Part shown: positions 609 to 59,365 of the stretch, in pieces
How the letters are laid out: each line of letters opens with the position of its first letter
How positions within the stretch are numbered: position 1 is the stretch's first letter
From: Brachycybe producta
Taxonomy: Eukaryota; Arthropoda; Diplopoda; Playtdesmida; Andrognathidae
NCBI GenBank assembly: GCA_036925085.1
Contig: JAUPFP010000003.1
Location: forward strand, 4,031,501 to 4,095,500
DNA: 64,000 bases
Reading direction: 5' to 3'
Notes under the pieces: model-generated
The model's input: only the letters and a program-made list of their open reading frames with translations
Told to the model about the DNA's origin: nothing
The model's database searches: none
Translations under genes and position numbers: made by a program

Positions 609-3600
609 CTATCATGGACGGAACAAAGGCTGTGCATTTCTCTTCCAATGAGTAACCCAAATAACGAGAGTTCATTAGCATATCTCCTTCTCGATAACTT
701 CTGTTGGTCAACGGGTCATCTTGGAGAGAACGACTTGAGTATGTCCAAAGGGATCGGTTACCTAAATAAAAAATTCAACTTTGAACCCTCTGAAAGGGGG
801 TTTATATCTATAATATTATAACCTGTGGCTATGACGTCATAGTCCGAAACGGCATAAACTTTGAAATCTGGTCCCAAATACTGTCCGTAAGCTTCTGGCG
901 AATAGAAGATTTGATTTTTCCACATATTTATGTCAAGAATCATTACTAAGAAGATGATTCCATAATTGAACCATTTGCCTAAAATTCAAATTAAACCCCT
1001 CAAAAAATTAGTACATTTTTCTTTTGTTACAAGTATTTGAGGCCCGCCTCGCTGATAACTTGATAAGAGCATGCATCTGGAATGCAATAAGGTGGCTGAA
1101 TGGATATTTATTTTATTTTGGACTATACCCAAATGACGCCACTTGCAGTGGTGGTCCAACCGACGGTTTTTGAGAAAATTTCTATTTTTCAAGCTAAGCG
1201 TTTTTCAGAAGATACATTACGAAAAAATTCAAAGTGTTTTAGAAACTAGAATAGCTGGTGATAATGCTAAAAGTATTTTCATAATGATATCTTTCAAAAT
1301 AAACTTTTTATGAAAAATTTGAAAAAAAGGCCGAAAAATAGTTTTCAATGAAATTTCAATGGAACCCCCCCCCCCCCCCCAAAAAAAACGGGTCATTTTT
1401 TCAAACTGAACTATAAAATTGTTTATTTTTTAAGATATTGCAATGAAAAAACTTTTAACATAATCTTTTACCATTCTAGTTTTTTAAACAATTTGAATTT
1501 TTTTTTTCGCTCTGACGTTTTCGCGTCAAAATTTTTACAAAAACAGCTATGGAGCATAACATTAGCCACTGCAGTAGCGTCATCTAGGGGGAGGGAAGAG
1601 AGAAAAACAAAATATCTATTCAGCCACCTTAATCAGTAAGGCGGTATGTTGTGGTTGTTTTAGTTACCCGTGATGTTAATCTTCCAGAACCTTTGTAAGT
1701 TCATTGGACAATCACAGAAGTTCAATTTAACTGCTTTGATCTTCAAACCCGGAAGATTGATGTCCAATGTGCTCGTAAAATGAGGAAAGTCCCAATCCTA
1801 AATACGAGATGAAGAAGTCAGAGAAACCCCAAGAAAACACGAGTTTAGGAAGTACAATTTGCAAGAGTTTTCATTAAAAACCTGCATGACAATAAGAAGA
1901 TCCATGACTAGAATGAAGGAGGCCAAATAGGCTCGAGAGAGTTCGGTGGTGGCCACGAAATCTCTGTTCAGTTTGTCCCAATTGATGAGATCGCTGACTA
2001 TGAGAGTGACGACCAGTGCGCTCATTCCGACGGCACCACTCCAGAATGTTACAATTCGAGTGTTTCCGGTTCTCCAGAACGCTCTGATATTTGGTGCCCA
2101 TGTCGGATATAGGTTATCCTGAAGCATCATGTCTGTTACCTGAGAAGAGAGAACGGACAGTACTGGTCAGTACGTTGTGGCACGAAAATACTGATCGTAG
2201 TTCAGAAAAGGTCAAAAGAGCTTTTCTTACCATCCATGCTGTCACGAAATCTCCAAGCCAAGTACCACAGGCTGCGGCTTTCATCAGTGAGGAATTTCTG
2301 ATACCCATTAGGGCTTTTTTTTTTAAAGGACGAAAGACAGTCTTAAAGCGGCTGAATAGATTTGTATTTTGTTTTTGTCTCCCCCGGATGGCGCCACTTC
2401 AGAGGCTAATGCTATGCTCCATAGACGTTTTTGTAAAATTTTGGATGCAAAAACGTCAAGCGAACGTTCTTTTAGAAACATCATTCTGAAGAAATTCAAA
2501 TTGTTTTCAAAACTAGAATGGTAAAAGATGATGCTAAAAGTTTTTTCATGGCAATATCTTAAAAATTAAACAATTTTATAGTTCAGTTTGACAAATGGTC
2601 CGTTTTTTTTTGGTTTTTCCATTGAAATTTCATAAAAAACTGTTTTCAGCCTTTTTCAAACTATCATAAAAAGTTTATTTTGAAAGATATCATCATGAAA
2701 AAACTTTTAGCATTATTATCAACTATTCTAGTTTTTAAAACACTTTGAATTTTTTTGTAAAGTTTCTTCTGAAAAACGTTCACTTGAAAAATAGAAATTT
2801 TCTCAAAACCTCGGATTGGAGGGGGATAGGGGGGAAGACATCCTTTAGAACATAATAGCCACTGCAGTGGCGCCATCTGGGAGTCAAAAACAAAATAAAT
2901 GTCTATTGAACCATCTTGAATGATGTCAAACGGCTCATGACTTACAGGAAATTTGGTATTTCCAATAGTTTGGATGTCCCACGCGTAGAATAGCATTATA
3001 AAGACTGGAGAAAATGTAAAGAGTTACAATCACAGTTAAGAACATTATCATCCAAGAACCCTGTTCCTCATGAAACATTTTAAGGCGACACAAACGAGCT
3101 GAAAAGAAAATGGAGCGGAAAAGGTAAAGGCAAATTAGTCCAAAGTTAAGGCCCTTATATTCAGCACCATGAGGTTAATTTTAGTTAAGGTATGGTCGCT
3201 CTTGACTGCGCATGTGTATAGTTCAAGTGAACCGTGCACATGCGCAGTAGAGTGCGATTTCGTGCACAAACACCATAACTAAAGCAGCAGTAATGCAAGT
3301 TGGTTCTGTACTGCGCATGTGCATTGTTTAAATGAAACCAACCAAAGTAGTAAATGATTAGTTCAGTGGTGGCGTTCTGCACATGCGCAGTAGAAAATGA
3401 TTGTGCATTTTTGTTGTATTACTTCACGGTTTACATGAAACCTGAAGTAGTGCAGCAACAATGTGATTTTCTACTGCGCATGTGCATTCTTTAAATAAAC
3501 TGACCAAATACTTAGTAAATGATTATTTGAGTGACTGCATTCTGCACATGCGCAGTAGAGAGTGATTGTGTGTATTCCTTTTGCATTAGGCCTACTTCAT

Positions 3601-6600
3601 GATGTGCGCGAGACCTGATGTAAAGTAATTCTCTACTGCGCATGTGCATTCTTTTAAATAAATCCAATGAAAGTAGAATGATACTGTATTGACTGCATTC
3701 TGCACATGCGCAGTAGAGTGAGAGAGAGAGAGCTACCTTTAAGCTACATTGACCTCATGGTCTGAGCAAGATTTTTTGATTCAATTTTATAATAAAAGAG
3801 AGTATTGACTGACCCAATAGAAGTCTGTGAATGGCGCGTTTACCGATGCCCATTCCGATTATCGTGGCTGTTAGCCACAGGAACACTTTGACCAATGTCC
3901 ACTCCCATTCTGGAGGGTATTTGGTGATTACGAAGGCGAAAACGTTTCCCACGATGGGAATGGCACTCTCTGAAAATATAAAAGTCCCTTTTTATGTATA
4001 ACTGAAAATGTTACAAGAAGGGCGTATTAGAAACTAGAAGAGTAACTGACTCATTTTCATGTTGATATCTTTTGAATTGTGTTTTTTTTTTGAGCCAAAC
4101 TTGAAGTGAAAAATGAAAATTGAGCCTTCGGGAAAATTTGTCAAAGAAGAGATTCAGTAACTCTTCTAGTTTCTAAAAGACTTTCTAACCAAACCCTCGA
4201 ACTCTTGTTTTATTCTGTCTTTTAGGAGTAAAATAACGAAAAACTAGAAAGTGTTTTCGAAACTAGAAGGGGGTAGCTCAATCACTTAATAGGTATTTTC
4301 ATGTTTTTGATATCGTTCAAAATAAACTTTTTGTGAGTTTGAATTTGACCTAAATTTAAGCATTTTTATCTATGAAAACATTGAAAAGTTTATTTTGAAA
4401 GATATCAACATGAAATTACTATTACGTGATTGATATATGGCGCGAATTTTTATGCAAATATGTGGTCTCTCAGTTTGTGGCCCAAATGCCAATTGTGAAG
4501 TAATCATCTGCAGTTATAGCTGGTTAGAGGCTAGAATGCTAGATGTTTGGTTACTATCAGTTGTCAACTAGACTACTAGCCTCTAAGCAGTGTTTTGACT
4601 GACAAAGCCATAATTGTTGGTTTGATCTAAACGGGATTGTTATTAACAATTGGCTCGTGTGCCACAGATTGAGAAGCATGTGCTTGAATATACTGCATAA
4701 AAATCCGAACCCTAATGATTGATTGAGCTACCCTTCTACTCCTGAAACGCAGAATAATCTAGAGTTCTAAAATTAGCTGTTCATAAACCAGCTTTAGCCC
4801 AGTTTTAGAAGAAGGCAATGCCTGGTTCAGACCTTGAGATTGATGCAAGTTAAAGGTTAGAACGCTTCTTAAAGCGTATGTGTCCAATCTTAACACTGCA
4901 CATGCGAACCGTGCATTACATTAACCTCACGGTATGAACGAACCGTTTTGGAGAGGAGACTGTCGAGGTTTTATCGTACCAGTGTGGCTATGCGAAACCG
5001 GATCCTCGGCAAAAATGAGAAAATTACAGAAAATGACAAAATAAACTACGAAGAGACGAGAATAAGGATGTTGGAAGTAGTAACGGCAATCCTGTTCCAT
5101 GTACAAAGAGTACTGACTGATGGCATCGATAGATTCACGGTGACCGACATTCGAACCACTCGTACCACCAACACCACCTCCTCCTACTCCTCCTCCTCCA
5201 CCACCACCACCTTTGGCTGTTTCGAACAATTTGTTCGTACCGTAATACACATACTGTCCACTACTTGATAAGGGCACTTCTGAACACAATTTGGTACTCG
5301 TGTGTAGGTGGTCACGATACCGTGGGTACGGACCCTGGTTTGGCTGAAAACTCAGTTGGCGCGGGTTCGATACGCACGAGTATGTGATTCTCTGTCCATT
5401 AGAGTCAACTTCTACGAGGCAGGACTTTAGAGGAACGAGTGGTACATAGGAAGTTGGAGATTGTTGGTAACAACAAGCTGCATGGTTATTGGTGGACATG
5501 GTACCACCGATCGATTGATGGTACGGATACTTCTGTCGAAGATGCAGAAGGGTACTGGTCTCATCTGGGCTGCAATCTGCGGAAGAACGTCGATCGGACA
5601 TGGTTAACGTTGTCAGCGAACTGTATCGTTGATGGTAGTTGCCCAGGAAGTTGGTTTCAAGCAGATCCGTTGTCGTTTCGGTTACTGGAAGGCCATTGCC
5701 GGTACCTGGAAACCCACCCAGGGTTTAGAGAAAAAATAAATCACGTTTAAAGTTGGTTTTTGAAGTGGAAACGCCTCTTTCGGATACAGAATTATGAAAG
5801 TCTTGAATGTGTTTTAGAAACTAGAAGGGGCAGCTTAATAACTTAAGGATATTTACAGGTTGTTATCTTTCAAAATAAGCTTTTTATTAGCTATTTTTTT
5901 TAATTTTTGTCTATAAATAGTTTATTTTGAAAGATATCAAACATGAAAATATCCTTAAGTGTTGAACTGCCCTTCTAGTTTTTAAAACACTTTCTAGTTT
6001 CATCCTTAATTTTGCTCTTCTGTTCATAAAATATATTAAGAAGAAATTGAAAGTGTTTTAGAAACTAGAAAGGGTTAGTACAGTCACTTAAAAAGGGTAT
6101 TTTCATGTTTTGAAATTTTTCAAAATAAACTTTTTTTTTTTGCAAGTTTAAAAATGTCCAAACTTTTAAGCAGACAATATTTTTAATTTTTGTCTATAAA
6201 TAGTTTATTTTGAAAGATAATCAAACATGAAAAATACCCATAAGTGACTGAGCTACCCTTCTAGTTTCTAAAACACTTTTAAGTTTCTCTTAATGTTGCT
6301 CTTCTGAAAGACAGAATAACCAGAGTTTCAAAGTGGCGTTTAAAATCTAAAATAAAAACGTTAAAGAAAACGTTATTTAAAACACATTTAAATAAATGTG
6401 GTTAATTGTGACCTGGACTGTCCATTAGGCAATTGGAAGTTGTCGTAGAAGGACGTCTCAAGTCACTGGCCACCGAACTACGAGCACTGTCGTCGATGAA
6501 ACGAATATCCTGTCCTAAATTGGTCCAGAAGCTGATGGCATGTCCATTGGCGTGGCCGTAAGGTGGTCGGTGATGACCACTGACGACTTTTTCATCTTCG

Positions 6601-16150: not shown

Positions 16151-17470
16151 AAGATTGATCCAGTTAGTTAAAAACTTAAAACATTTGAGAAAAAAACTTT
16201 CTTCAAAATTGGAGTCAGGTTCCTGAAAAGAATGAAATAAAGTTTCTCAAAAAGACTGAGATACTCAAAAGATGTTTCTGAAAGAATTACGAGAGAAGTT
16301 TCACAAAAGATTGAGAGAAGTTTCTCAAAAGATTGAGAGAAGTTTCTCAAAAGATTGAGAGAAGTTTCTCAAAAGATTGAGAGAAGTATCTCCAAAGATT
16401 GAGAGAAGTATCTCAAAAGATTGAGAGAAGTATCTCAAAAGATTGAGAGAAGTTTCTCAAAAGATTGAGAGAAGTTTTGGAAAAGATTGAGAGAAGTTTT
16501 GGAAAAGATTGAGAGAAGTTTTGGAAAAGATTGAGAGAAGTTTCGGAAAAGATTGATAGAAGTTTCGGAAAAGATTGAGAGAAGTTTCGGAAAAGATTGA
16601 TAGAAGTTTCTCAAAAGATTGATAGAAGTTTCTCAAAAGATTGAGAAGTTTGATGGAAAATTGAGAAGAGCTTCTCAAAAGATTGAGATTAGTTTCTCAA
16701 AAGATTGAGAGAAGTATCTCAAAGATTGAGAGAAGTATCTCAAAGATTGAGAGAAGTTCCTCAAAAGATTGAGAGAAGTTTCTCAAAAGATTGAGAGAAG
16801 TTTTGGAAAAGATTGAGAGAAGTTTTGGAAAAGATTGAGAGAAGTTTTGGAAAAGATTGAGAGAAGTTTTGGAAAAGATTGAGAGAAGTTTCGGAAAAGA
16901 TTGATAGAAGTTTCGGAAAAGATTGAGAGAAGTTTCGGAAAAGATTGATAGAAGTTTCTCAAAAGATTGATAGAAGTTTCTCAAAAGATTGAGAAGTTTG
17001 ATGGAAAATTGAGAAGAGCTTCTCAAAAGATTGAGATTAGTTTCTCAAAAGATTGAGAGAAGTATCTCAAAGATTGAGAGAAGTATCTCAAAGATTGAGA
17101 GAAGTTCCTCAAAAGATTGAGAGAAGTTTCTCAAAAGATTGAGAGAAGTTTTGGAAAAGATTGAGAGAAGTTTTGGAAAAGATTGAGAGAAGTTTCGGAA
17201 AAGATTGATAGAAGTTTCGGAAAAGATTGAGAGAAGTTTCGGAAAAGATTGATAGAAGTTTCTCAAAAGATTGATAGAAGTTTCTCAAAAGATTGAGAAG
17301 TTTGATGGAAAATTGAGAAGAGCTTCTCAAAAGATTGAGATTAGTTTCTCAAAAGATTGAGAGAAGTATCTCAAAGATTGAGAGAAGTATCTCAAAGATT
17401 GAGAGAAGTTCCTCAAAAGATTGAGAGAAGTTTCTCAAAAGATTGAGAGAAGTTTCTCAAAAGATTGAGG
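16150..17470. repeat. 22-bp minisatellite with higher-order repeats
   Basis: Tandem array of the unit AGTTTCTCAAAAGATTGAGAGA with variants (TTTTGGAAAAG, TTTCGGAAAAG, TATCTC). A marker unit GATTGAGATTAGTTTCTC recurs at 16681, 17029 and 17333. The higher-order periods are therefore about 348 and 304 bp, differing by exactly two 22-bp units. Because 22 is not a multiple of 3, the long open frames on the minus strand come from the array itself. The array ends about 180 bp beyond the stop codon of the peptide precursor gene. Confidence 0.95.
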
Positions 17471-17648
17471 ATCGTTTTTTTATAAAATGTTGATTTCGAA
17501 GAAGATATCACGATGAAAATACTTTCAGCCAATTCATTTACTATTCTAATTTCTAACAAAATTTAAATTTCTTCTTAAGTTATTTCAAAAAAGCTGATTA
17601 ACCAATTTTTTTTTGGAGATTTTTTTTTTATAGTTTTGTTTGTAATTT

Positions 17649-20600
17649 TTAGCGTCCCAAACCCGTCCACAGAATTGAAGGGTTATAATAATGTTTCCTT
17701 TGACCCCCATCTTCACTACTTTTTGACCGAGTTACAAATTTTAATTCTTGACCGTCTCTACGGTCTTGTTTCGAGAAAGTTGTTGTTCCTCCTTCGTGAG
17801 GAGGTCCGAACGGTCCGAGATTTTCGATGGAACGCATTTCTTGACGTCGCCAAAGTTCCTTTTGTGCGGCATCAAAAAATCTTCTCAAGTCAGTGAATAA
17901 TTCTGGACCTAAAGGTGCCGACGATGATGGACGTTTTCCCAGTCCGATCCATTTGAGTCCTGGATCGTATTTCGGTCGGCTCGTTCCCGTCTTTCGAATC
18001 CTAGGAGTCATGTTTTCATTTTGGTTATGATGGCTCGGTTCGCTTTCGTAATGGTCATTCTTATGAAGTGATTCTTGTTGACCAATGCTTTGGTCCGGTT
18101 CTTCGAGATCTTTCAAAATTTCCGTTATTTCTCCATTGGTTTTTCTCAACATCGGAGATTCTTCTTAAAATAAATAAATGAAAAAAAAATGTATTTATTT
18201 ATTAATAACTTGTTATACAATTTTTTAAAAAAAACTTTTAGGCCTTGTTTCCATTGGGGTGAAAATTTGAACTTTTTTTTGAAAATTTCAACTGATGAAA
18301 AATTGAACAAACGTGACCTTTGCCCTATGTGTAGCGGTTAGATGTCGCCACTAGCCCTCCTTCGATAGAAATGTACTGACACTCTTCGACACAGGTATTT
18401 AGAAATCGGGACGAACACAAGTTGGATCCGCCCTTTTTATGAAGTCCGGCAACTTCTAATTAGTTTGTTGTCTGGTTCGATGTTAACAAGGGCGGAGCAT
18501 GTGACGTCAGACTACATAACCAACCAATTAGAAGTTGCCGGTCGTCATAAAAAGGGCGGAGCCAACTTGTGTTCGTCACGATTTCTATCTGCCTGTCGCT
18601 CCAAGTCGCCTAATGCTACTCCTCCTACATGTAGCTAGGAAAAGGGGCCAAGTGGGCCAGAAAGAGACCAGAGATATTGTTTCTCAAATTAAGGAACCTC
18701 TCTTGCCCCTTTTATATAGGTTTTTATTTCAAATAAAAAGCAATATGTTGAATATTTTTTTTAAACTCAATCAATATTAATTCGTTAAGTGGGTGGTGGG
18801 GTTTAAGGAGGAAGAGGAGGAGGAGGAGGAGGCTAATTAAAATCGTCTTGAGTGCGAATTAATGTCGTTACTGAAAAAGTATAAAGTAAACACACCTACA
18901 CTTATTAATCTAATAATTTATGCAAACAATGGACTTGAGGAGGATTCGTGTAAAATGAACAAAACAACAGATTTCTGAAAAGGTCTTCATTGGATTTGTG
19001 TCTTAAGATAATATTAATCCCATATTTTGATTAGGGATCAGTTTCTTCTTCTTCTTCTTCTCATTATTATTAGAAGTATTAAAATTGAAGAGAAGAAATT
19101 CAACTTAAAACAGATGAAAATCCTTTTATGACAATATTAATTGAAAATATTGTATAATCGACATTGGAATTAATTATTAATTGTGTGATTTTTTTAAAAA
19201 ATCAAGTTTGTTGCTGTTGTCCCGGAGGGGGGAGGGTTGTGAGATTGGTTCACACATGCTGAAAAACAAGCAGGAAAAATTAGATATAATTATAATAATT
19301 TACAAAAAAAAATGTTAGAATTAAGTTAAAATAATAAAATTTATAAATAAAAAAAAATGTTAGAGAAAAAATTTGGAATTTAGAAAAAAAAAAAAAATTA
19401 GAAAAATCAGAGAATTAGAAAATTTGCAAAAATGTCAGAACAATATTGTGAAATTTGTTGTTAAAAAAAATATTTAAACTAACGTGTTTAAATACTTTTT
19501 TTTAATTTTTCAATATTGTTCTGACAAATTATAAAATTTTATAAAAAAAAAATATCAAGAGAATTTTGCAAAAATTATAAAAACCTGAAAAAATACGAGA
19601 GTTACAAAATTTACAAAAAAAAATTATGAAAAACTTGTGATAATCATAGTATTATAAATAAAATTATTACAAAAATGTCAGAACAAAATTGTGTAATTTT
19701 GAAAAAAAAAATATTAAACACGTTAAAATTGCATAATTTATATCAAAAAAAGTCAGAAAAAACTTTGGAATTTAGAAAAAAATTATAAAAATCAGAGAAT
19801 TAGAAAATTTGCAAAAATGTCAGAACAATATTGTGAAATTTTTTTTAAAAAAAATATTTAAAGATGACACAGGCATCTGTAGACAGCTGTTTGTTTTGGC
19901 TCCGCCCCTTTTATGAGCGTCAGACCAAATATCAACCAATTAGAAATAAAAAGGGCGGAGCATGTGACAACAGACTCAGTAACAAAAACCAATTAGAAAT
20001 TGATGACGCTTATAAAAGGGCGGAGCCAACGAAATTCTGAAGCTGTCTACAAATGTCTGTCATAGCATTAGCCATTGGTGTGGCGCCACCAGGGGGGAGG
20101 GGGGGACAACAGCAAAATAAATACAGGCAATTAAAAATCGGGACGAGCAGAAGTTGGCTCTGCCCTTTTTATGACAACCGGCAACTTCTAATTGGTTTGT
20201 TGTGTGGTTCAACGTTGAAAAGGGAGGAGCATGTGACGTCAGACTACATAACCAATCAATTAGAAGTTGCCGTTCGTCATAAAAAGGGCGGAGCCAACTT
20301 CTGTATGTCCCGATTGCTAATTGCCTGTTCTACAGATGCCTGTCAACAGTGTTCTCTGACAGGCAATTAGAAATCGGGACATACAGAAGTTGGCTCCGCC
20401 CTTTTTATGACGACCGGCAACTTCTAATTGGTTTGTTGTGTGGTTTAACGTTGAAAAGGGACGTCAGACAACATAACCAACCAATTAGAAGTTGCCGGTC
20501 GTCATAAAAAGGGCGGAGCCAACTTCTGCTCGTCCCGATTTCTAATTGCCTGTAAATAAATATCTATTCAGCCACCTTAATTAAGTAACGTTTTAGAATA

Positions 20601-23600
20601 CGACTGTGTTTGTTGCTCTAAAAAAAACCGCAATTTAAATAGTTTGTGTTCCCAATAAACTCATTAAAACTTCTTTTTTTTATCTTAAGGCGTTTTAATA
20701 TTATAAATTTGCATATTCTAATGACGCCTCTCTTATGTATTTTAATTATAATGAATTTTCCTATCCAACTTTTGCCGAGAACCGAAAATAAAAACAGGGG
20801 AAAAATACAAAACTCTGGGGGCTTTAGGCGGAAGTCAATTATGAAAAAAACTTAAACAGGGGTCAATCACATTTATTCACCGATTTAATAATTACCCACA
20901 TTTTGTTTCATTATTATCTTATATATTATTATTATTATTATTATTAAAATCAACTATAATGGATGTGGGTGGTTTTTACATTTTATGAGAAAAAATGTTT
21001 TTCTAGTTTTTTATTTTGTAACACGTTTTCAATGCGGGTTAAAAAAACTTGTTTTTTTTTAATAAAGTAGCCATTTGTAAATTATGCAAATGATTCAGGA
21101 ACAGAAAAAAAAAAGAACTATGGAAAATATTTATATAGAAAATATATTTATAGGAAAAACCGGTAGAACCGGTTTTCCAATTACTGAAACTGATAGAACC
21201 GGTTCACCAGTATATAGGCTGCCGAACGGATAAAAAAAATGGTTCCGAACCAAATGTATAGGTTTGGTTCGGTTCTACCCTTTTGTCACCTCTAATTAGT
21301 CTAATGTGCTGCACAAATCTGCTAATGCATAATGGGAACCGGTTCGAACAGGTTTTGATCAGTTTGTCGATTATGAATTTCTGACGAACCGGTTTTGATC
21401 AGTTTGTCGATTATGACGAACCGGTTTTGATCAGTTTGACGATTATGACGAACCGGTTTTGATCAGTTTGTCGATTATGACGAACCGGTTCTGATCAGTT
21501 TGTCGATTATGACGAACCGGTTCAAACGCATTAGCAGATTTGCGGAGCACATTAGACTAATGTGCTGTGCAAATCTGATAATGCATAATGGGAACCGGTT
21601 CATCAACATCGATGAACTTGATCAGAACCCCAGTGGTTCCCTCTGGCACAGGCCCCTCCTCTGCACTGTGGATTATTCAAATACAGTTTTAAAACCAACT
21701 TAAGGAAACAAAAGTCTTGTTTTTCCTGTTTTTAATTTTTACATTAAAGTGATTTTAATTGCGATTGAAATTAATTTAATTATTTCAATTGATTTGAGAC
21801 TAGAAAGAACAAGTGGATCCTAATGAAGCAAATAAACGAATTAACAACTGTTGTATCGAATGAATTCTGTTAATTAGTTGCAGATATTCTTGACCATTGG
21901 TCTGGTATAACTGCAGCATAAGTAAAAATCAGGCATTCTATACATTTACTAAGTAATGTATACAATGATATAGAATGCCTATTTCGGTAATAAACAAGGG
22001 TGGACTGGCTTATCGGTAGAGATGTCAACAGGGTCGGAACTGATAGAACCGGTTCGCCAATAACTGGAACTAATAGAACCGGTTCGCCAATAACTGGAAC
22101 TAATAGAACCGGTTCGCCAATAACTGGAACTAATAGAACCGGTTCGCCAATAACTGGAACTAATAGAACCTGTTCGCCAATTACTGGAACTGGTAGAACT
22201 GGTTCGCCAATTACTGGAACTGGTATAACTGGTTCGCCAATAACTGAAAGTAATAGAACCGGTTCGCCAATTGCTGAAACTGGTAGAACCGGTTCGCCAA
22301 TTGCTGAAACTGGTAGAACCGCTTCGCCAATTACTGGAACTTGTAGAACCGGTTCGCCAATTACTGGAACTGGTAGAACCGGTTCGCCAATTACTGAAAC
22401 TGGTAGAACCGGTTCGCCAATTACTGAAACCGGTAGAACCGGTTCGCCAATTACTGGAACTGATAGAACCAGTTCTACTTATCGGAAGGGGGGGGGGGCA
22501 TTTTTTCTGATGGGCCGCTTAGACAGACAGCAAAGCTAAGGGGCGCAGAAATAACTAGAGTAAAGGAGGCGCCAGTTTTATTCTTGCCTCTAGTGCAAAA
22601 TTAGATAATTATAGCCAGTGGCGCCCACAGGATAATTTCATAAGGGAGGGGGAGGCAATTCCCAAACTAAAAAATTATTAGCCCATACTATTATGACCCC
22701 CAACATGTGGCTCATTAGTGTTCATTTTCCACCTAAGGCGCGCATGCGTCTTTTGTCTACGAGCCTTATACCCTTTGAAACTATAAGTGTGGCTTTTGAG
22801 TAAAACACACCCTGTATAAATGTTGTTTCCTATCCAATCTCACTCGAAGTTACTTTTATTAAAACAAAACTCAGGTGATTTCATTAAAAAATATTGCCTC
22901 ATATAACACGGAAATATGGAGGGGTGGTGTGGGAGGGGGAGGGGGTGCAAAATAAGTTTCCAATAATAAAAGACTAGAAGAAGTAAATGAGGCAATTTGA
23001 GCAAAATGATGAAGCCTCGCATTTTCTTTATTCGAGAATTCATTTTCAAGCGGAAAAACAAATTCATTACTAAGGGAGGGTGGTTACATTGTAACCAATA
23101 ATAAAAAAAAGAACAATTTATATAAAAATTCATCATATTTATAAACAACAAAACGATTTTTCTTTAAAAAAAAAAAGTTCAAAGTTTATAATAATGAAGG
23201 GACATTCGAATCCGGAGAATCTTGAAAAATATTCGAGATTCGAAAACTCAAATCTTTCGAATCCTAACCTTTAAAAAACTTAAAAACTTTCGTAAAAATT
23301 AGTTTTAACCCCAATTGACGTCCGATAGAAGCATTCACTAACAAAAAACCGGCGATTGTTGGCAATTTCGGTGGTGGTATCCGGATTACCAATGGATCAC
23401 CTTGTGGCCTGACCCTGAGTGAAGCCACACTGTGTTTTTAATTATTAATAATTTAATATTATTTTATTTATTTGTATCTTCTTAATGAATAATATATATA
23501 GGATTCTTTTAGGAAGGATTCGAGAACCGATTCGGATTCGAGACAATTTAGGATTCGTTTCACCTCTAGTTTATAACCTTAAGAGGGCAAATAAGAAGTT

Positions 23601-25004
23601 TATTGGTTGAGAATCTCAAAGCAATTAATTTGCTAATAAATTCTTCCCTCTGTCATAGGGGCCCCTCTTTGAACTGATTGTGAAAAGTAATTATTCAAAA
23701 ATCGATTTGTAAGGAAAGAGAAACATGAAAGTGTTTTAGAAACTAGAAGGGTAACTCAATCACTTAAAGGTGTTTTCATGTTGATATCTTCTTTCATAAT
23801 AAACTTTTTACGTAAATTTTAAAATGACCTAACTTTTTAAGCAGACAACACTTCGTTTTCTTTTTAATATTATGTCTATAAAAAAAAAGTTTATTTTGAA
23901 AGATATGAGCATAAATATCACTTCAGGTGGTTTTAAAGTGTAAACGGGGGTCTCGCAAACTCTTGCAAAAAGAAACTTGAATGTGTTTTAGAAACTAGAA
24001 AGGAAGCTTGTTCGCTTAATTGTGTTTTGATGTTGATATCTTTCAAAATAAACTTTTTATGTGAATTTGAAAATAACCCAACTTTTAAGTTGGAGACATT
24101 TTTAGCAGAAAATAAGTTTTTGATTTTTTTTTTGGCTATAAAATTTTTATTTTGAAAGATAATCAACAGGATAACACCTATAAGTGATTGAGTTACCCTT
24201 CTAGTATCTAAAACACTTTTAAGTTTCTGGTAATTTTCGCAAAGGAAAGACAGAAATAATCTTGAGTTCAGTAGGCGAGTTTAAACTTTAAAAAACCACC
24301 TTAAGATGGTTTTATGAAATGATGAGCAATACTATAATGATTGAGCCACCCTTCTAGTTTCTAAACCACTTTTCAAAATAAACAGATGGTTCGAAAGTGC
24401 TTTATAAACTAGAAGGGTACCTCAATCATTTAAAAGGGTATTTTCATGTTTGATATTTTTCAAAAATATAAAAAAAGTTTATTTTGAAAGATATCAACAT
24501 GAAAAAAACCTTTTAGGTGATTGGAGCTACCCTTCTAGTTTCTAAAACACTTTCTAGTTTCTGGTAATTTTTGCAACCTGAAAGACAGAAATAATCTTGA
24601 GTTCAGGAGGCGAATTTACACTTTAAAAAAACCACCTTAAGATGGTTTTATGAAATGATAAGCAACACTAGTGATTGAGCTACCCTTCTAGTTTTTATAA
24701 CACTTTCTAGTTTCTCTTCATTTTGTTCTACTGAAAGACAGAGATAATATTGAGTTCAGGAGATGAATTTACACTTAAAAAACCCACCTTAAGATGGTTT
24801 TGTGAAATGATGAGCAATAATACTTTAATGATTGAGCTACCCTTCTAGTTTCTAACCCACAGTTTGAAAAAAAAAATCAGCTGTTCATTAAACAATATTA
24901 AACTCACCATTGGCTCTGAATGAATCATCATCGGTTGCAATTGAAACAATAAAAATTGCCAAACTTATTAGTGTCCATGTCACAAAACATTCTTTTATCC
25001 CCAT
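17649..25004 (-). CDS. Secreted precursor with two Y-x-P-x3-W-x-GL-amide peptides
   Basis: Two exons on the minus strand. Exon 1 is 25004-24908: ATG, then a hydrophobic stretch TLISLAIFIVSIA that looks like a signal peptide cleaved near residue 23, then a strong GTGAGT donor. Exon 2 is 18163-17649, after a TTTATTTTAAG acceptor; phase 1 to phase 1 gives about 203 residues. Two internal repeats end in amidation-plus-cleavage signals. The first is KYDPGLKWIGL followed by GKR, with Y98, W104, L107. The second is HYYNPSILWTGL followed by GR and stop, with Y192, W198, L201. Upstream cuts are RIRK and QRK. Expected mature peptides are TGTSRPKYDPGLKWIGL-amide and HYYNPSILWTGL-amide. Linkers are acidic or polar with further RR sites. 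The layout is that of a neuropeptide or peptide-hormone precursor. I do not recognise the family. The C-terminal GL-amide recalls allatostatin A (YxFGL-amide), but the F is missing. The 6.7-kb intron is full of repeats. Confidence 0.78.
18391..18596. repeat. Fold-back MITE, ACAGGCAATTAG family (copy)
   Basis: Palindrome of about 206 bp inside the large intron of the peptide precursor gene, starting ACAGGTATTTAGAAATCGGG. The left flank (GTCGCCACTAGCCCTCC and neighbours) is the complement of sequence flanking the 15.07-kb copy, so the two MITEs sit in copies of one larger repeat. Confidence 0.85.
18600..19868. other. AT-rich intron sequence, no exon seen
   Basis: Low-complexity A/T sequence within the peptide precursor intron. 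It includes a (GGA)n stretch near 18810, (TTC)n near 19045 and repeated words such as AATTTGCAAAAATGTCAGAA (about 19420, 19670 and 19810). No coding or RNA gene is supported. Confidence 0.5.
19869..20060. repeat. Fold-back MITE, GCCCAGCACTA-related
   Basis: Ends ACAGGCATCTGTAGACAGCT and the complement AGCTGTCTACAAATGTCTGT. The interior shares TTATGAGCGTCAGACCAAAT and GGGCGGAGC with the other members. It abuts a partial TTAAGGTGGCTG-family element that continues to about 20575. Confidence 0.75.
20123..20553. repeat. Two adjacent ACAGGCAATTAG MITEs inside a TTAAGGTGGCTG-family remnant
   Basis: Copies at 20123-20328 and 20359-20553. Outside them, AGGGGGGACAACAGCAAAAT on the left and ATCTATTCAGCCACCTTAAT on the right belong to the TTAAGGTGGCTG family, so the MITEs inserted into that older element. 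The stretch on to 21150 is AT-rich and empty. Confidence 0.8.
21150..21620. repeat. ACCGGTT-rich degenerate repeats
   Basis: Repeats of GACGAACCGGTTTTGATCAG (about five, 38-bp period, 21385-21530) between arms containing TTAGTCTAATGTGCTGC and its complement. The same words recur at 41.51-42.12 kb. The centre is a minisatellite inside a short inverted-repeat element. Confidence 0.8.
22000..22480. repeat. 30-bp minisatellite (ACCGGTTCGCCAATAACTGG)
   Basis: About 15 copies of a 30-bp unit, so one frame reads a 10-residue repeat (roughly G-T-N-R-T-G-S-P-I-T) without stops for 179 codons. No promoter, splice or homology support is seen, and variants change residues freely, so I treat it as non-coding. 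The same ACCGGTT words build the repeats at 21.2-21.6 and 41.5-42.1 kb. Confidence 0.85.
22500..23196. other. Gene-free intron sequence
   Basis: Within the peptide precursor intron. No exon or recognised repeat family. It contains a GGGAGGGGGAGG purine-rich patch near 22930 and A-runs. Confidence 0.45.
23197..23569. repeat. hAT-like non-autonomous element (copy)
   Basis: Same family as 13789-14216 in opposite orientation. It has TTCGAATCC-rich arms and the conserved GGATCACCTTGTGG centre, and lies in the peptide precursor intron. Confidence 0.75.
23720..24870. repeat. Cluster of CTAGAAGGGTAGCTCAATCA fold-back elements
   Basis: At least three fold-backs (about 23725-23935, 23975-24230, 24385-24560) and right-arm remnants to 24870. 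All are left of exon 1 of the peptide precursor, whose donor is at 24907. Words: GAAACTAGAAGG, TTCAAAATAAACTTTTTA, TTTATTTTGAAAGATATCAAC. Confidence 0.75.
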
Positions 25005-25469
25005 CCTCCTTTGTTGTTTGTGGCTCTTCTACTTTTTATGAAGACAAAATCGACACAAGTTTTAAAAATTTTGTGTTTGGTCTCTTTAGGTGTTTTTTTT
25101 TTCTTCCTGAAAGTTGAAGTTTTCAGGTGACAGATGATGATGATCAGGATTGGGTTTGTTTCTACCTAAAGAGCCCTTAATTTTCTTTTGCCCACTTTTA
25201 TGACCATTGCTGGCTGGCTGGCTGGTTGGTTGGCTCGAACGCAAAAACCGCCAAAACAATATCACAGAGAGGGTGGTTTTTGGTTCTGACGTCACTAAAC
25301 TTAACAACCAATAGCAGAACAATTTCGATTGCTTTTATAGTCTTTTTTCTTTCTAGGTTTTAATTTTATATACAGAGGTGTCTCAAAAATAAAAATTGGA
25401 ATTTATTCAAGAACCTAGAAGAAACTAGAAACTAGAATGTGTTTTCAGAAACTAGAAGGGTAGCTCAAT

Positions 25470-25679
25470 ACAGAGGCAATTAGAACTCGGGATAAACAGA
25501 AGTTGGCTCCGACCTTTTTATGTCGACCGGCAACTTCTAATTGGTTTGGTTATGTAGTCTGACGTCAATTGCTCCGCCCCTTTTCAACGTCGAACCACAC
25601 AACAAACCAATTAGAAGTTGCCGGTCGTCATAAAAAGGGCGGAGCCAACTTCTGTTTGTCCCGATTTCTAATTGCCTGT
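25470..25679. repeat. Fold-back MITE, ACAGGCAATTAG family (copy)
   Basis: About 210 bp, flanked by AGCTCAAT on both sides (an 8-bp target duplication). The target is itself an arm of the CTAGAAGGGTAGCTCAATCA family, which dates this insertion as later. It lies about 470 bp upstream of the peptide precursor start. Confidence 0.9.
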
Positions 25680-25684
25680 AGCTC

Positions 25685-26525
25685 AATCACTTAAGAGGCT
25701 ACTTCGCAAAATGACTTTGTAAAATCTTCACAAAGAGCGCTAGCATCGTTTTTCTATTGAGCCCATAGACCCGACGATGTTAAAGAAGAAACGTTAATTT
25801 TTAAAATACACAGCAGTCGCGGCGGCAATTTGTTTATTTTTCATATTTAAAGTTGTCCAATTTTGATGATTCAAAGTGCAATGTGGCAATTTAAATAGAT
25901 GCCGATCGAGAGATAAAATGACAAAAAATTGGTAAGTGCGGTTCTATTTTTAAAAAAACTATTTTGAAAATTGGTAATTTCTAATTCTTATGATAAACAC
26001 CATTGAATAAGCCCAAATGAGAAGAAAAAAACATCCATTAAAATGTTGATAAAAAATACGTAAAAATAAATTTAAAAAAACCACAATTAAACCACAGTGA
26101 AGCCAACACATTGGCGCACGTGCTGATTTTTATTTCTGGTTTTATAAAATTATTTTTACGTATTTTTACGAGCATATTTTAATGGATGTGTTTTTTGCTT
26201 ACGAGCGTGTACTCAATGGAGTTTAACATAAGAATTAAAAATTCGTGATTTTGAAATATTTTTAAAAAATAGAAGCACACTTACCAATTTTTTGTCATTC
26301 TATCACTCGATCAGCATATATTTAAAGTGCACATTGCACTTTGAACCATCAAAATTGGACAAGTTTAAATATGAAAAATAAACATATTGCCGCCGCGACT
26401 GTTTGTATTTTAAAAATTAACATTTTTTCTTTAACATTGGGTCTATGAGCTCAATAGATAAAAGATGCTAGCGCTCTTTGCGGAGATTTTTCGAAGTAAT
26501 TTTGCGATGTGTAGACTCTTAAAAA
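25685..26525. repeat. Large 0.84-kb fold-back element
   Basis: The left arm (25.69-25.99 kb: GAGCGCTAGCATCG, CAGTCGCGGCGGCAATTTGT, CATATTTAAAGTTGTCCAAT) is complementary to the right arm (26.21-26.52 kb: ACATATTGCCGCCGCGACTG, GATGCTAGCGCTC). Each arm is about 300 bp, with roughly 200 bp between. No reading frame. This is the only copy seen in the window. Confidence 0.85.
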
Positions 26526-53597: not shown

Positions 53598-56500
53598 ATG
53601 ATGTATCATAGAATTTTATTATTTCGCAAGATGTTTAATATTAATAGAGGAAATGGACCAATGAGATTTTTGAAGACACTCAAAGATGTACCTGGACCTA
53701 AACCTTTACCATTAATTGGAAATTTAAATCTCTTTGAACCCTTTGGTAAGAAAAGGTTTATAGAGGTAGAGGCCTGGTTATTAAGATCATCGCTCTCTAC
53801 TGCGCATGTGCAGAATGCAGGCACTGAAGTATCCTCTACTTTGATTGGTGTGCATCTGAACAATGCACATGCGCAGTTGAGAAAGCGATTGTACCTTAAC
53901 CTACATTAATTTGGTAAGAAAAGGTCAGAGGCCTGGTTATTAAGATCATCGCTCTCTACTGCGCATGTGCAGAATGCAGGCACTGAAGTATCCTCTACTT
54001 TGATTGGTGTGCATCTGAACGATGCACATGCGCAGTTGAGAGAGCGATTGTACCTTAACCTACATTAATTTGGTAAGAAAAGGTCAGAGGCCTGGTTATT
54101 AAGATCATCGCTCTCTACTGCGCATGTGCAGAATGCAGGCACTGAAGTATCCTCTACTTTGATTGGTGTGCATATGAACATTGCACATGCGCAGTTGAGA
54201 GAGCGATTGTACCTTAACCTACATTAATTTGGTAAGAAAAGGTCAGAGGCCTGGTTATTAAGATCATCGCTCTCTACTGCGCATGTGCAGAATGCAGGCA
54301 CTGAAGTATTCTCTACTTTGATTTTTGTGCATCTGAACGATGCACATGCGCAGTTGAGAAAGCGATTGTACCTTAACCTACATTAATTTGGTAAGAAAAG
54401 GTTAGAGGCCTGGTTAAGATCATCGCTCTCTACTGCGCATGTGCAGAATGCAGGCACTGAAGTATCCTCTATTTTGATTGGTGTGCATCTGAACAATGCA
54501 CATGCGCAGTTGAGAAAGCGATCATACCTTAACCTACATTAACTTCATATGCTTTGAATTTGGACTTTATAGTTGATTTTGCAACTTTCTTATTGCTGTT
54601 TTTTTAAAACATTTTGTGTTATTTGACATTTGACTTATGTCAGCTTCTAATTAAAAAAAAGTAACTGTAACTGAAGTTACATGACATTTAGAGGCTAAAA
54701 TTACTGGTTACTATCAGTTGTCAACTAAGAGTTCTATAGCCTCTAACCAGTGTTTTGATTAGAAAGTTGCTCTGATGATGATGGTTACAATTGGCACGTG
54801 GGCCACAGATTGAGAAACGTTTGCTTGATATTTGCATAAAAATCTGAGCCCTACTGATGACTAATTAAGTAACTTAAATTACGGTTACTTTTAAAAGTGA
54901 AAACTACTACTAATTGGAAAGTAACTGTAACTGAAGTTACATTTTGAATATTTTTTTTTTGTCATATAGCCGACTTAATATTTTAATTTCATTTACATGC
55001 TGGACGATCGCTGACCACCAAACTGACCAATCGAAATATAAATTGTTTCGTTATATATAGGTCCGTACGCTCTTGAAAAAGTGAACGATGCGGCCGCAGA
55101 TCTCCATCGAGAGTACGGTCCGATCGTACGCCTCAAGCTCGGAGTGGACATCGTGTTTCTGTTCGATCCGACCGACGTGGCCACGGTGTTCCACAACGAG
55201 AGCAAATATCCCGAAAGACCCGTGTTCGAGGCTCTCCTCAAATACAGACGTCAGAATCCCGACAAATATCTCCACATGGGACTTTTCACTGAGTTTGAGC
55301 CGTTCTTTTTTTTAGTTCGTAATTTTCATTAGTTGATTCCTTTTTTTTTTTTTTTTCTTCTTAAAGTAACGGCGAAAATTGGGCTTACGTAAGAAGTCTC
55401 GTCAATTCTCTTCTTCATCTCGGAGCTCCGAATCCTTACTTTACGAACCAGGCCAAAGTGGCCGAAGAGTTCGTCGAACATCTGAAGGGAGTTCGGGATA
55501 CGGACAACAAAGTTACGGATCTTTTGGAACTTCTTTATAAATACACTCAAGAAGGTTGAAATCTTCTTAACGTTATTTTAATATATTTGATCGGGCGGTT
55601 TTTATTTCACAGCTTTGAAGAAACAATTTTATGGAAGAAACTTAGACTTGATCCACATCAAGCTATGGGAAGACACCAACCTTGGCGACACAGGCGACTT
55701 TTAAAACACTTTTTCGGCAAGAAAAGGAAGTCGAGTTGTCGCCCAAACCAAACACTTTCAAAAGACTGCAGAGATTTTAAAATCACCTGTGTGTAATGGA
55801 AAAAACGATCTCGCCTGTGGTGAGAATTGAACACCTTCCGGAGACAGTAGTTGGAAAGTATTTCGAAAGTCACCTGTGTCACCAAGGTTGGCGTCTTTCC
55901 ATAGAAAACACATTGCGGCGACAGCTCAGCGACCTTCGACTTCATTTTGTCGTTGAAAAATCTTTCGAGAGTCGCCTGTGTCGCAAAAGGTTGGCGTCTT
56001 TCCATAGAAAACACATTGCGACGACAGCTCAGCGACCTTCGGCTTCATTTTGTCGTTGAAAAGTCTTTCAAGAGTCGCCTGTGTCGCAAAAGGTTGGCGT
56101 CTTTCCGTAGAAAACACATTGTGACGACAGCTCAGCGACCTTCGACTTCATTTTGTCGTTGAAAAATCTTTCAAGAGTCGCCTGTGTCGCAAAAGGTTGG
56201 CGTCTTTCCATAGAAAACACATTGTGACGACAGCTCAGCGACCTTCGACTTCATTTTGTCGTTGAAAAATCTTTCAAAGGTCGCCTGTGTCGCAAAAGGT
56301 TGGCGTCTTTCCATAGAAAACACATTGTGACGACAGCTCAGCGACCTTCGACTTCATTTTGTCGTTGAAAAATCTTTCGAGAGTCGCCTGTGTCGCAAAA
56401 GGTTGGCGTCTTTCCATAGAAAACACATTGCGACGACAGCTCAGCGACCTTCGGCTTCATTTTGTCGTTAAAAAATCTTTCAAGAGTCGCCTGTGTCGCA

Positions 56501-59365
56501 AAAGGTTTGCGTCTTTCCATAGAAAACACATTGCGACGACAGCTCAGCGACCTTCGGCTTCATTTTGTCGTTAAAAAATCTTTCAAGAGTCGCCTGTGTC
56601 GCAAAAGGTTTGCGTCTTTCCATAGAAAACACATTGCGGCGACAGCTCAGCGACCTTCGACTTCATTTTGTCGTTGAAAAATCTTTCAAAGGTCGCCTGT
56701 GTCGCAATAGGTTGGCGTCTTTCCATAGAAAACACATTGCGACGACAGCTCAGCGACCTTCGACTTCATTTTGTCGTTGAAAAGTCTTTCAAAAGTCGTC
56801 TTGTGTGCCACGGCTCTAAAATATATATAAACAAATAAACATCTTCTTGTAAAATTCGTCATTTACTTTTCTAGTTACGAAGAGATTTTCATTTTAATGT
56901 TTCTTCTGAAAAGCAGAATAATTTGGAATTTTATTTCAGTATTTCAGTCGACAGTTACAAGTCTTACATGTTTTACGTTCTCATTTAGCAATCGGTCTAG
57001 TTTGTTTCGGAACGCGGCTCGAATGTTTCAACTGTAATTCGGATAACGAAATCAACAGGAACGTTACGGAGATGTTGGATTCGATGGGACGTACTCTTTT
57101 GGAGTTTCCCTTATGGAGAATCATTCCGACTCGGACTTACAGAAAATTAGTCGAGACACAAATAAATCTTGAACAGTAAATCAAACAAAAGTCACCATTT
57201 TTTTGGTTCATTTTTAAGCTGATTTTAAATTGTTAAACGATCTTCAAACTATATCGTTATTTTGTCTTTCGTGACCAAAATCACGACAAACTTGAAAGTG
57301 TTTTAGAAACTAGAAGGATACCGGGTGTTTGATATCTTTCAAAATAAACTTTTATGCTATTTTTGAAAATAACCCAATTGAAGCAGATGGTAATTTCTTT
57401 TAATTTATGGTTCTGAAACGTTTATTTTGAGCTATAATTGGAGCTATAATTCTAGTTTATAAAACACTTTCTTGTTAATCTTGCACAACACTACATCGGA
57501 TTGGAACGGAAAGAATCGTAATATTTTGATAAATGCTTATTATCAAAATATTCCGTTTCGTTCCGATCCAATGCGGTTTACTAGTGCTGTCAGCTTTACT
57601 GTTGATTTTGCTTTCCCCGAAAGACAAAAAAAATCAGAGAGTTCGAAAATCAGCTGTTCGTAAAATATCTGAAACTGTTTTTTTTTTTTTTTAATTTATT
57701 TTCAAGAATGACTTCGAGGTTGTTAGAAGAAGCACGGAAACGATTTCGGCTCGATCCTTCGCAGACGAATCAGAGTCCGTTCTTGAACTCTCTTCTTAAG
57801 CTTGATTCTCTGGACGAACGTGATTTAAATCTGGTTGTGATGGAAATCTTTCAAGCCGGAATCGATGCCGTATTTACAATATTAATAATGGAAGTTTTAG
57901 AATTTTCGACAATAGTAATTAATCTCCAATCTTTAACGTTTTATTTAGACGGCTTCTGCCATTGCGATGACTCTTTATCATCTCGGACGTAACGTAGAAG
58001 TTCGACGTAAAGTATTTTCCGAAATCGATAGCATCTTGCCGAGAAATGTACCTCTGACTACGAATTTACTTCACGAATTTAAGTTTTTACGAGCTTGCAT
58101 CAAAGAAACATTTAGGTGCTCTTCAATTTGCACCTGAAATACATAATAATGGGAGAGATCGAGAATCCCTGTTTACACTCGAAAACCACCTCCATATTGA
58201 TTTCATCTTCTTTGTTTTATTTGTTTTTAGATTGACTCCTCCCGTCGGTGGAACAGCTCGAATTCTTCCAATTTCGTTGGTTCTTTCTGGATACGAACTT
58301 CCGGCGAAAGTAATTTTTGCTAATTTTCAATAGAGTGGAAAAAAAATCGTAAATTTTAACAAATCTTTATTAAAAAAAAAAACTTCCAGACGCTCGTGAT
58401 AGGGAACCATCCGGTGATGTCTCGTAGTGAGGAATTCGTTTCGAAACCGAACGAATACGATCCAACGAGGTGGTTACGAAACGACGGAACAAGTAGATCA
58501 AATGTCCCACCGTTCGTTTCGCTTCCGTTTTCATTTGGAATTCGTACGTGTCCCGGACGACGTTTCGCAGAACAGGAAATAATTTTACTATTGATCAAAG
58601 TGAGTGACATTTGCAGTTTTTTTTTTCCGACAGAGGATATCTTTCGGATATTCTTTCTTTCGATTAGAAGCTTGCTAGCCTCTAAGCTAAGGCTATGGAG
58701 TTAACTTATTATACAGGTTGCATCGTAGACACATTAAGGTGGTTTTGTCTCCTCAAATGGCGCCACTGCAATGACTAATGCTGAGCTCCGTAGACGGTTT
58801 CGTAAAACTTGGACGCAAAAACGTCGAGAAGAATATTACGAAAAAAATTCAAATTGTTTTTCAAACTAGAATGGTAAAAGATTATGTTAAAAGTTTTTGA
58901 TGGCAATATCTTGAAAAATAAACAATTTTATAGTTCAGTTTGAAAATGACCCTTTTTTTTGGAGGTTTTTTTTATTGACATTTCACGAAAAACTATTTTC
59001 GGCCTTTTTTTTCAACCTTGTCATAAAAAGTTTACTTTGAAAGATATCATCATGAAAAAAAAACTTAGCATTATCATTGACTGTTCTAGTTTCTAAAACA
59101 ATGAATTTTTTTTTTCATAATGTTTCTCTTGAAAGACTATAAGCGGCTACTAATCGAAAGTATTTTGAAAGAGATCGAAAGGCACTTTTGCAATGAATTT
59201 AACAAAATTTATTATTTTTCGTTTGATCTCTTGTTCATTTTTTCTCCTCTTCCGTAGTTATTTCAGAAATTTGATTGCATTTATCAGGGATCCGATGTCG
59301 GTATGATTATGAGACTAAATTATATTCCAGATAAAACTCTTGATTTTATTCTTATTGAAAGGTAA
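53598..59365 (+). CDS. Mitochondrial-clan cytochrome P450, 9 exons, complete
   Basis: Exons: 53598-53745, 55061-55292, 55367-55554, 56989-57175, 57707-57869, 57949-58115, 58231-58309, 58390-58599, 59258-59365. Phases agree and give 493 residues. A TAA three codons before the ATG fixes the start; the second codon is also ATG. The N-terminus (HRILLFRKMFNINRGNG) is basic and has no ER anchor, as in mitochondrial P450s fed by adrenodoxin. Motifs in order: VPGPKPLPLIGNL; NGENWAYVRSLVN; the I-helix AGIDAT at 302-307; E359-T-F-R362 (ExxR); PTRW (413-416); and the haem loop F435-S-F-G-I-R440-T-C442-P-G, followed by RRFAEQE. The C-terminus MRLNYIPDKTLDFILIER is typical of the clan. The substrate is unknown; family members make or clear steroids, vitamin D-like sterols or xenobiotics. 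I cannot assign a CYP number. Introns 1 and 3 hold tandem arrays; AATAAA follows the stop. Confidence 0.95.
53746..54545 (+). repeat. Tandem array of about 159 bp carrying copies of the exon 1 splice donor
   Basis: Five units containing CTACTGCGCATGTGCAGAAT and AATGCACATGCGCAGTTGAG. Each next unit starts TTTGGTAAGAAAAGG, the same sequence as the exon 1 donor (CCCTTTG|GTAAGAAAAGG). The real donor GT is at 53746. Copies of it lie at 53914, 54073, 54232 and 54391, with a spacing of exactly 159 bp after the first. Confidence 0.92.
54655..54858. repeat. GGCTCGGATTTTTATGC-family MITE, left end decayed (P450 intron 1)
   Basis: The right arm GCCACAGATTGAGAAACGTT and GCATAAAAATCTGAGCCCTA is intact, and the central AGAGGCTA...TAGCCTCTAACC hairpin is present. 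Flanking AGTAACTGTAACTGAAGTTA occurs on both sides (54.66 and 54.92 kb). Confidence 0.7.
55660..56815. repeat. 103-bp minisatellite (P450 intron 3)
   Basis: About nine full units with GTCGCCTGTGTCGCAAAAGG, TTGGCGTCTTTCCATAGAAA and CAGCTCAGCGACCTTCGACT, 90-97% alike by eye. It is preceded by an inverted part-unit at about 55.66-55.71 kb. Because 103 = 1 mod 3, open frames of about 71 codons recur every unit and are not genes. Confidence 0.95.
57290..57475. repeat. CTAGAAGGG fold-back element (P450 intron 4)
   Basis: Decayed copy: GAAAGTGTTTTAGAAACTAG, ATCTTTCAAAATAAACTTTT, then TTTATTTTGAGCTATAATTG. Next to it (57.49-57.58 kb) is a short palindrome around GGATTGGAACGGAA/TTCCGTTTCGTTCCGATCCA. 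Confidence 0.65.
58733..59135. repeat. TTAAGGTGGCTG-family element, truncated (P450 intron 8)
   Basis: Begins ATTAAGGTGGTTTTGTCTCC, carries GGCGCCACTGCAATGACTAA and the AAAGTTTACTTTGAAAGATA core, but lacks the final right arm. It accounts for most of the intron before the last coding exon. Confidence 0.7.

Follow-up and report, generated by a model that had tools for sequence, protein, structure and literature searches.

A two-exon gene of the millipede Brachycybe producta very probably encoding a secreted precursor of undescribed WxGL-amide peptides

Myoinhibitory peptides, or allatostatin B, are Wx6W-amides. Allatostatin A (AstA) is defined across arthropods as Y/FxFGL-amide in a passage of PMC9263205, and tachykinin-related peptides and tachykinins are given as FxGxR-amide and FxGLM-amide in a part of PMC6880623. 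Here we describe a gene of the millipede Brachycybe producta that is compared below with these families. It lies in a 64-kb window (the whole stretch of DNA analysed, C3:4031501-4095500) of the 295.3-Mb genome, which is assembled in 442 contigs; positions without a contig prefix are those of the window. According to our analysis, it is very probably a two-exon arthropod gene for a secreted peptide precursor, whose products would form an undescribed Y[DN]P[GS][LI]xW[IMT]GL-amide family.

The predicted precursor reads RIRK-TGTSRPKYDPGLKWIGL-GKR, continues with a linker and a variable spacer, and closes with RK-HYYNPSILWTGL-GR and the stop. Y, D/N, P, W, G and L recur in both of its repeats, YDPGLKWIGL-GKR and YNPSILWTGL-GR-stop, as an earlier note on this DNA had claimed, and the processing signals listed in that note (GKR, GR before the stop, and the upstream RK) are all present. 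Both peptides are short, have few charges and contain no cysteines; the computed MH+ is 1888.044 for TGTSRPKYDPGLKWIGL-amide and 1462.748 for HYYNPSILWTGL-amide. The clearest product would be HYYNPSILWTGL-amide, which occupies the C-terminus of the precursor. Counted through the amidation glycine, six positions are identical between the copies, four of them with different codons, one being Trp with its single codon and one sharing the same codon. Because four of the six use different codons, a recent DNA duplication is an unlikely origin of the two copies.

A search of 5.77 billion protein sequences yielded a single homologue, P0001, at E 5.4e-24 and with 50% identity over 99% of residues 92-203 of the precursor (21 candidates). 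P0001 has 167 residues, comes from one 11,667-nt contig of source 'lgn' and is identical to the precursor at 62 of 127 positions in a BLASTP alignment. It reads RFRK-ASNSRPKYDPGLKWMGL-GKR and, at its end, RK-THYNPSLYWTGL-GR. Both peptides, their order, the linker, the upstream basic sites (RxRK and RK) and the Gly-basic amidation signals are kept, the latter being the same GKR and GR-stop in both sequences. For exon 2, P0001 is thus the orthologue with both repeats conserved that the earlier note had set as a test.

Identity between the two sequences is unevenly distributed. The processing sites agree at 3/4 (RxRK), 3/3 (GKR), 2/2 (RK) and 2/2 (GR) positions, and the peptides at 13/17 and 8/12, versus 5/36 in the variable spacer (residues 137-172) and 10/54 in the N-terminal spacer, where the alignment is unreliable, as it is over the signal exon (4/32). 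Residues 173-182 agree at 8/10 and residues 183-187 at 0/5. In these two sequences, conservation appears concentrated in the peptides and their processing signals, above the spacers, although the linker PxxxxPLGPxxFxDLRxFFDAA is also identical at 15/26 positions, close to the level of peptide 2. The selection on mature peptides for which the earlier note had argued would fit this pattern. Between species, the ten-residue cores are identical at 9/10 and 8/10 positions, whereas the two copies within one precursor share 5/10 and 6/10. Because orthologous copies are more alike than the copies within a precursor, each copy seems to be conserved in its own right, and the two protein sequences suggest a duplication that predates the species split, with each copy under its own selection.

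Further relatives were not recovered. The whole precursor (203 residues) used as a protein query gave no passing match among 29 candidates, probably owing to the limit of 100 words that applies to a query of this length. A masked two-sequence profile of the precursor and P0001 found no third member among seven candidates and returned P0001 again, and alignment scans confirmed none of 28 pattern stretches in genome contigs and none of 7 in viral contigs. Within the Brachycybe genome, a six-frame search matched only the two exons of this gene, and no paralogue was evident with a looser DNA pattern, which had four matches genome-wide (two of them in this gene) versus four for its control.

With AstA the peptides have in common the GL-amide end, a Tyr upstream of it, processing at GKR and an origin from a multi-copy precursor that is predicted to be secreted. 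They differ in lacking FGL, with I, M or T before GL and Trp one position further back, and in having Pro as the third residue of the ten-residue core. As the earlier note had observed, the diagnostic F of AstA is missing in both copies, which read WIGL and WTGL. Moreover, the genome carries its own canonical AstA precursor on the same contig, 1.68 Mb away. A search with the AstA pattern gave 13 matches, 11 of which cluster at C3:2365066-2365829, within a 410-residue open reading frame (C3:2364820-2366052) that holds 12 [YF]xFG[LV]GK units, compared with two copies in the present precursor. We therefore rejected the possibility that the present gene is the AstA gene.

Tachykinin-type peptides likewise have an aromatic-x-Gly close to the amidated C-terminus, a motif resemblance only: the present peptides have Trp in place of Phe and end at Leu, with neither Arg-amide nor Met-amide. 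An assignment to the tachykinin-related peptides was rejected, since neither copy has the FxGxR-amide C-terminus. Myoinhibitory peptides are similarly amidated and Trp-containing, while the present peptides have neither a C-terminal Trp nor the W-x6-W spacing. In the cnidarian GLW-amides, Gly, Leu and Trp likewise lie close to the amide, but order and ending differ (GLW-amide versus WxGL-amide).

Searches of family libraries gave no name to the precursor. No Pfam family matched the precursor or P0001 when asked to E 10, with the HMMER filters dropping most matches above about 0.1; no NCBIfam family matched exon 2 or P0001 to E 1 in this prokaryote-oriented library; and a PDB profile search had no match. 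The missing Pfam match means little for such short peptides, because the Pfam AstA model (11 positions) also gave no match in the genome, although an AstA gene is present. In 5.39 million open-access papers, exact strings (WTGL, WIGL, WSGL, WVGL, WMGL, related amide spellings and precursor fragments) retrieved no such peptide; matches in a bean mitochondrial carrier and a cone-snail conoporin fragment are unrelated, and the other matches were judged unrelated by title. Broader open-access literature searches found no description of such a peptide in titles, beginnings of abstracts or retrieved passages, and the Ixodes catalogue of PMC7828734 (Table 1) lists 38 neuropeptide entries, none of them named as a WxGL-amide. 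The earlier note's 'unrecognised family' holds within Pfam, NCBIfam, PDB and open-access exact strings, with specialist chelicerate surveys outside this scope, and we use the term as a bounded claim, limited to the sources searched.

The repeat pattern is rare. When the window was resampled 300 times with a first-order Markov model, Y[DN]PxxxWxGLG[KR] did not occur in any of six frames. A strict DNA pattern including the Gly-basic signal had two matches in 295.3 Mb, both in this gene, and none for the reversed-pattern control; as this pattern was derived from the two copies themselves, the genome-wide count demonstrates rarity only.

The gene model joins the exons at AAT G|AA GAA and yields a spliced product of 203 residues (Table 1). 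A T-rich tract and TTTTAAG directly precede the start of exon 2 at 18163. The GT-AG intron and the phase-1 join agree with the two-exon, phase-matched gene claimed by the earlier note, whose 18164 and 24907 mark the two ends of the intron. The ATG at 25004 is the first in its frame, because the stop-to-stop frame around exon 1 (25028-24888) begins at 25028, with an in-frame stop upstream. Within 20 kb upstream of exon 2, and on the minus strand of the whole window, exon 1 is the sole candidate that combines an ATG, a basic residue, a hydrophobic core, a cleavage site and a phase-1 donor; the plus strand of the 64 kb has one candidate under the same criteria, which were fixed after exon 1 was already known.

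Residues 1-23 resemble a signal peptide in a hydropathy and rule-based scan, with a strong hydrophobic core and a -3,-1 site. Hydropathy reaches its maximum of 3.23 in the 9-mer starting at residue 12 and does not exceed 0.81 past residue 30. By the -3,-1 rule, cleavage most likely falls after A23; the rule used in the candidate scan put it after residue 21. The signal peptide claimed by the earlier note corresponds to a signal-peptide-like N-terminus in the sole upstream candidate exon, whose attachment to exon 2 is a predicted one.

Table 1. Features of the predicted precursor gene in window positions. Identities are those with the homologue P0001.
Feature	Positions	Strand	Remarks
Exon 1 (97 coding nt from the ATG to the GT donor), predicted signal peptide	24908..25004	-	no homologue found for exon 1
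Predicted signal peptide MGIKECFVTWTLISLAIFIVSIA	24936..25004	-	hydropathy; most probable cleavage after A23
Intron, 6744 nt, GT-AG, phase 1, repeat-rich	18164..24907	-	GTGAGT...TTTTAAG
Exon 2 coding part, 515 nt including stop TAA, both peptides and spacers	17649..18163	-	homologous to P0001
RIRK cleavage site before peptide 1 (RFRK in P0001)	17991..18002	-	conserved
Predicted peptide 1 TGTSRPKYDPGLKWIGL-NH2; core YDPGLKWIGL at 17940-17969	17940..17990	-	13/17 identical; core 9/10
GKR, amidation glycine and dibasic site; Pro next in both species	17931..17939	-	conserved
Conserved linker PSSSAPLGPELFTDLRRFFDAAQKEL (P-x4-PLGP-x2-F-x-DLR-x-FFDAA), no assigned role	17853..17930	-	15/26 identical
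LKFVTRSK, conserved short segment preceding peptide 2	17721..17744	-	8/10 identical, residues 173-182
RK cleavage site before peptide 2	17694..17699	-	conserved
Predicted peptide 2 HYYNPSILWTGL-NH2	17658..17693	-	8/12 identical; core 8/10
GR then stop, C-terminal amidation signal	17649..17657	-	conserved

We posit the following route from gene to signal. Exon 1 would supply the signal peptide for secretion, and prohormone convertases in the secretory pathway would cut at RxRK, GKR and RK, as the conserved sites suggest. A carboxypeptidase may then trim the basic residues, and PAM-type enzymes may convert the exposed glycine to the amide. The output would be a pair of related peptides, TGTSRPKYDPGLKWIGL-amide and HYYNPSILWTGL-amide, which have the ending Y[DN]P[GS][LI]xW[IMT]GL-amide in common and probably signal, as neuropeptides or hormones, through one or two peptide G-protein-coupled receptors (GPCRs). 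Judging from the two sequences, both copies were apparently kept distinct since before the species split.

Several points weigh against this interpretation. Exon 1 is linked to exon 2 by prediction alone, and the hormone or neuropeptide role of the peptides is a putative one, predicted from sequence and conservation. Only one homologue was found, and the profile built with it recovered nothing else; moreover, P0001 resembles an open reading frame of the exon 2 type, and its own N-terminus appears to have no clear signal peptide. Pro directly follows the KR of peptide 1 in both species, and convertases are usually hindered by Pro at P1'. Because KR precedes Pro and the linker is conserved in both species, peptide 1 might not be freed from the linker. 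The linker may be a product in its own right, or copy 1 may be released in a longer form. Neither complication, the linker after copy 1 or the Pro after KR, had been raised in the earlier note.

The last of these points leads to the alternative of one longer bioactive peptide, in which copy 1 and the conserved linker (TGTSRPKYDPGLKWIGLGKRPSSSAPLGPELFTDLRRFFDAA...) stay together across an uncut KR-P and amidation is confined to the C-terminal copy. The Pro after KR and the conserved linker would fit this, but the Gly-Lys-Arg triplet is exact in both species and the WxGL core of copy 1 matches that of the C-terminal copy, which has a clear amidation signal; we consider this arrangement quite unlikely. 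A secreted amidated peptide of non-hormonal function (antimicrobial, salivary or venom-gland) seems more improbable still. Amidated Trp-containing peptides are also known from venoms and antimicrobials; nevertheless, the arrangement found here, two distinct conserved copies, basic sites that are likewise conserved and a spacer that is variable and polar, is the usual neuropeptide layout, and the peptides, besides being short, carry few charges and lack cysteines. The chance of a fortuitous open reading frame, a pseudogene or two unrelated exons is very small and already refuted for exon 2. Some room for it is left by the long, repeat-rich intron and by the resampling of exon 2, in which 62 of 20,000 trials had one or more of the three frames free of stops, but the match to P0001 at E 5.4e-24 is focused on the peptides and processing sites.

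It is also compatible with the same gene model that the peptides belong to a diverged branch of a named arthropod family, either as an AstA paralogue or as a family from chelicerate or myriapod surveys. The GL-amide ending and the upstream Tyr do recall the Y/FxFGL-amide of AstA, as worded in the passage of PMC9263205. On the other hand, the canonical AstA gene holds 11 of the 13 AstA-pattern matches of the genome, neither copy has the F of FGL, and neither the names in the 38-entry Ixodes table (PMC7828734) nor the exact-string searches include a WxGL-amide. We regard a named family as unlikely, though it deserves more weight than the alternatives above. Our own proposal, which we consider slightly more likely than not, is that the Y[DN]P[GS][LI]xW[IMT]GL-amides are a new arthropod neuropeptide family outside the usual catalogue, with two ancient, separately evolved paracopies and a receptor of their own, and that the PLGPxxFxDLRxFFDAA linker is a second, non-amidated product.

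The intron and its surroundings contain several repeats. A minisatellite with a 30 bp unit (21870-22547) lacks stops in several frames of either strand and produces long spurious reading frames. A sequence of about 90-105 bp occurs in several copies and both orientations within and just past the intron (18391-20599 and 25472-25725), and is probably a small dispersed mobile element. Somewhat less than 200 bases downstream of the precursor stop, a 22-bp tandem array begins (about 16400-17480, outer limits by eye), which also yields spurious reading frames. An Rfam scan of the window at gathering threshold had no matches.

Among the neighbouring genes are TMEM117-family exons on the minus strand (1798-5724; PF15113, E 8.1e-38 and 9.5e-17) and a cytochrome P450 gene on the plus strand (about 56938-58704), for which PF00067 was matched at E 5e-17 by the reading frame 58360-58704 and at 0.054 by 57606-57992. 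The first exon of the latter was placed by eye. Its best-scoring solved relatives are mitochondrial CYP11 enzymes, and it is possibly an ecdysteroid-making mitochondrial P450. Upstream of it lies a tandem repeat of about 120 bp with open frames (about 55658-56800, by eye).

Elsewhere in the genome, TTAGG telomere arrays were found; like the mitochondrial code 5 given below, they are marks of an arthropod. Mitochondrial COI copies are present on other contigs, including C1:12697416-12698753 and C17:4027703-4029047; one of them nearly fills the profile and has a single internal TAA, and they are likely nuclear mitochondrial inserts. Contig C442 (15,359 bases), read with code 5, seems to be the mitochondrial genome, and its genes stand in a rearranged order. 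COI is directly followed by COII, which is not the pancrustacean ground pattern, and ND4L, ND4 and ND5 (read by eye), with tRNA-His between ND4 and ND5, lie on the same strand as COI.

Word-based searches for such genes can overlook a relative when the query is the whole precursor: here the full-length query remained empty, and the peptide-bearing part found P0001. Neuropeptide families new to arthropods are rare finds, and a conserved amidated pair, unnamed by family models or in the searched text, would offer a definite ligand to test on orphan GPCRs.

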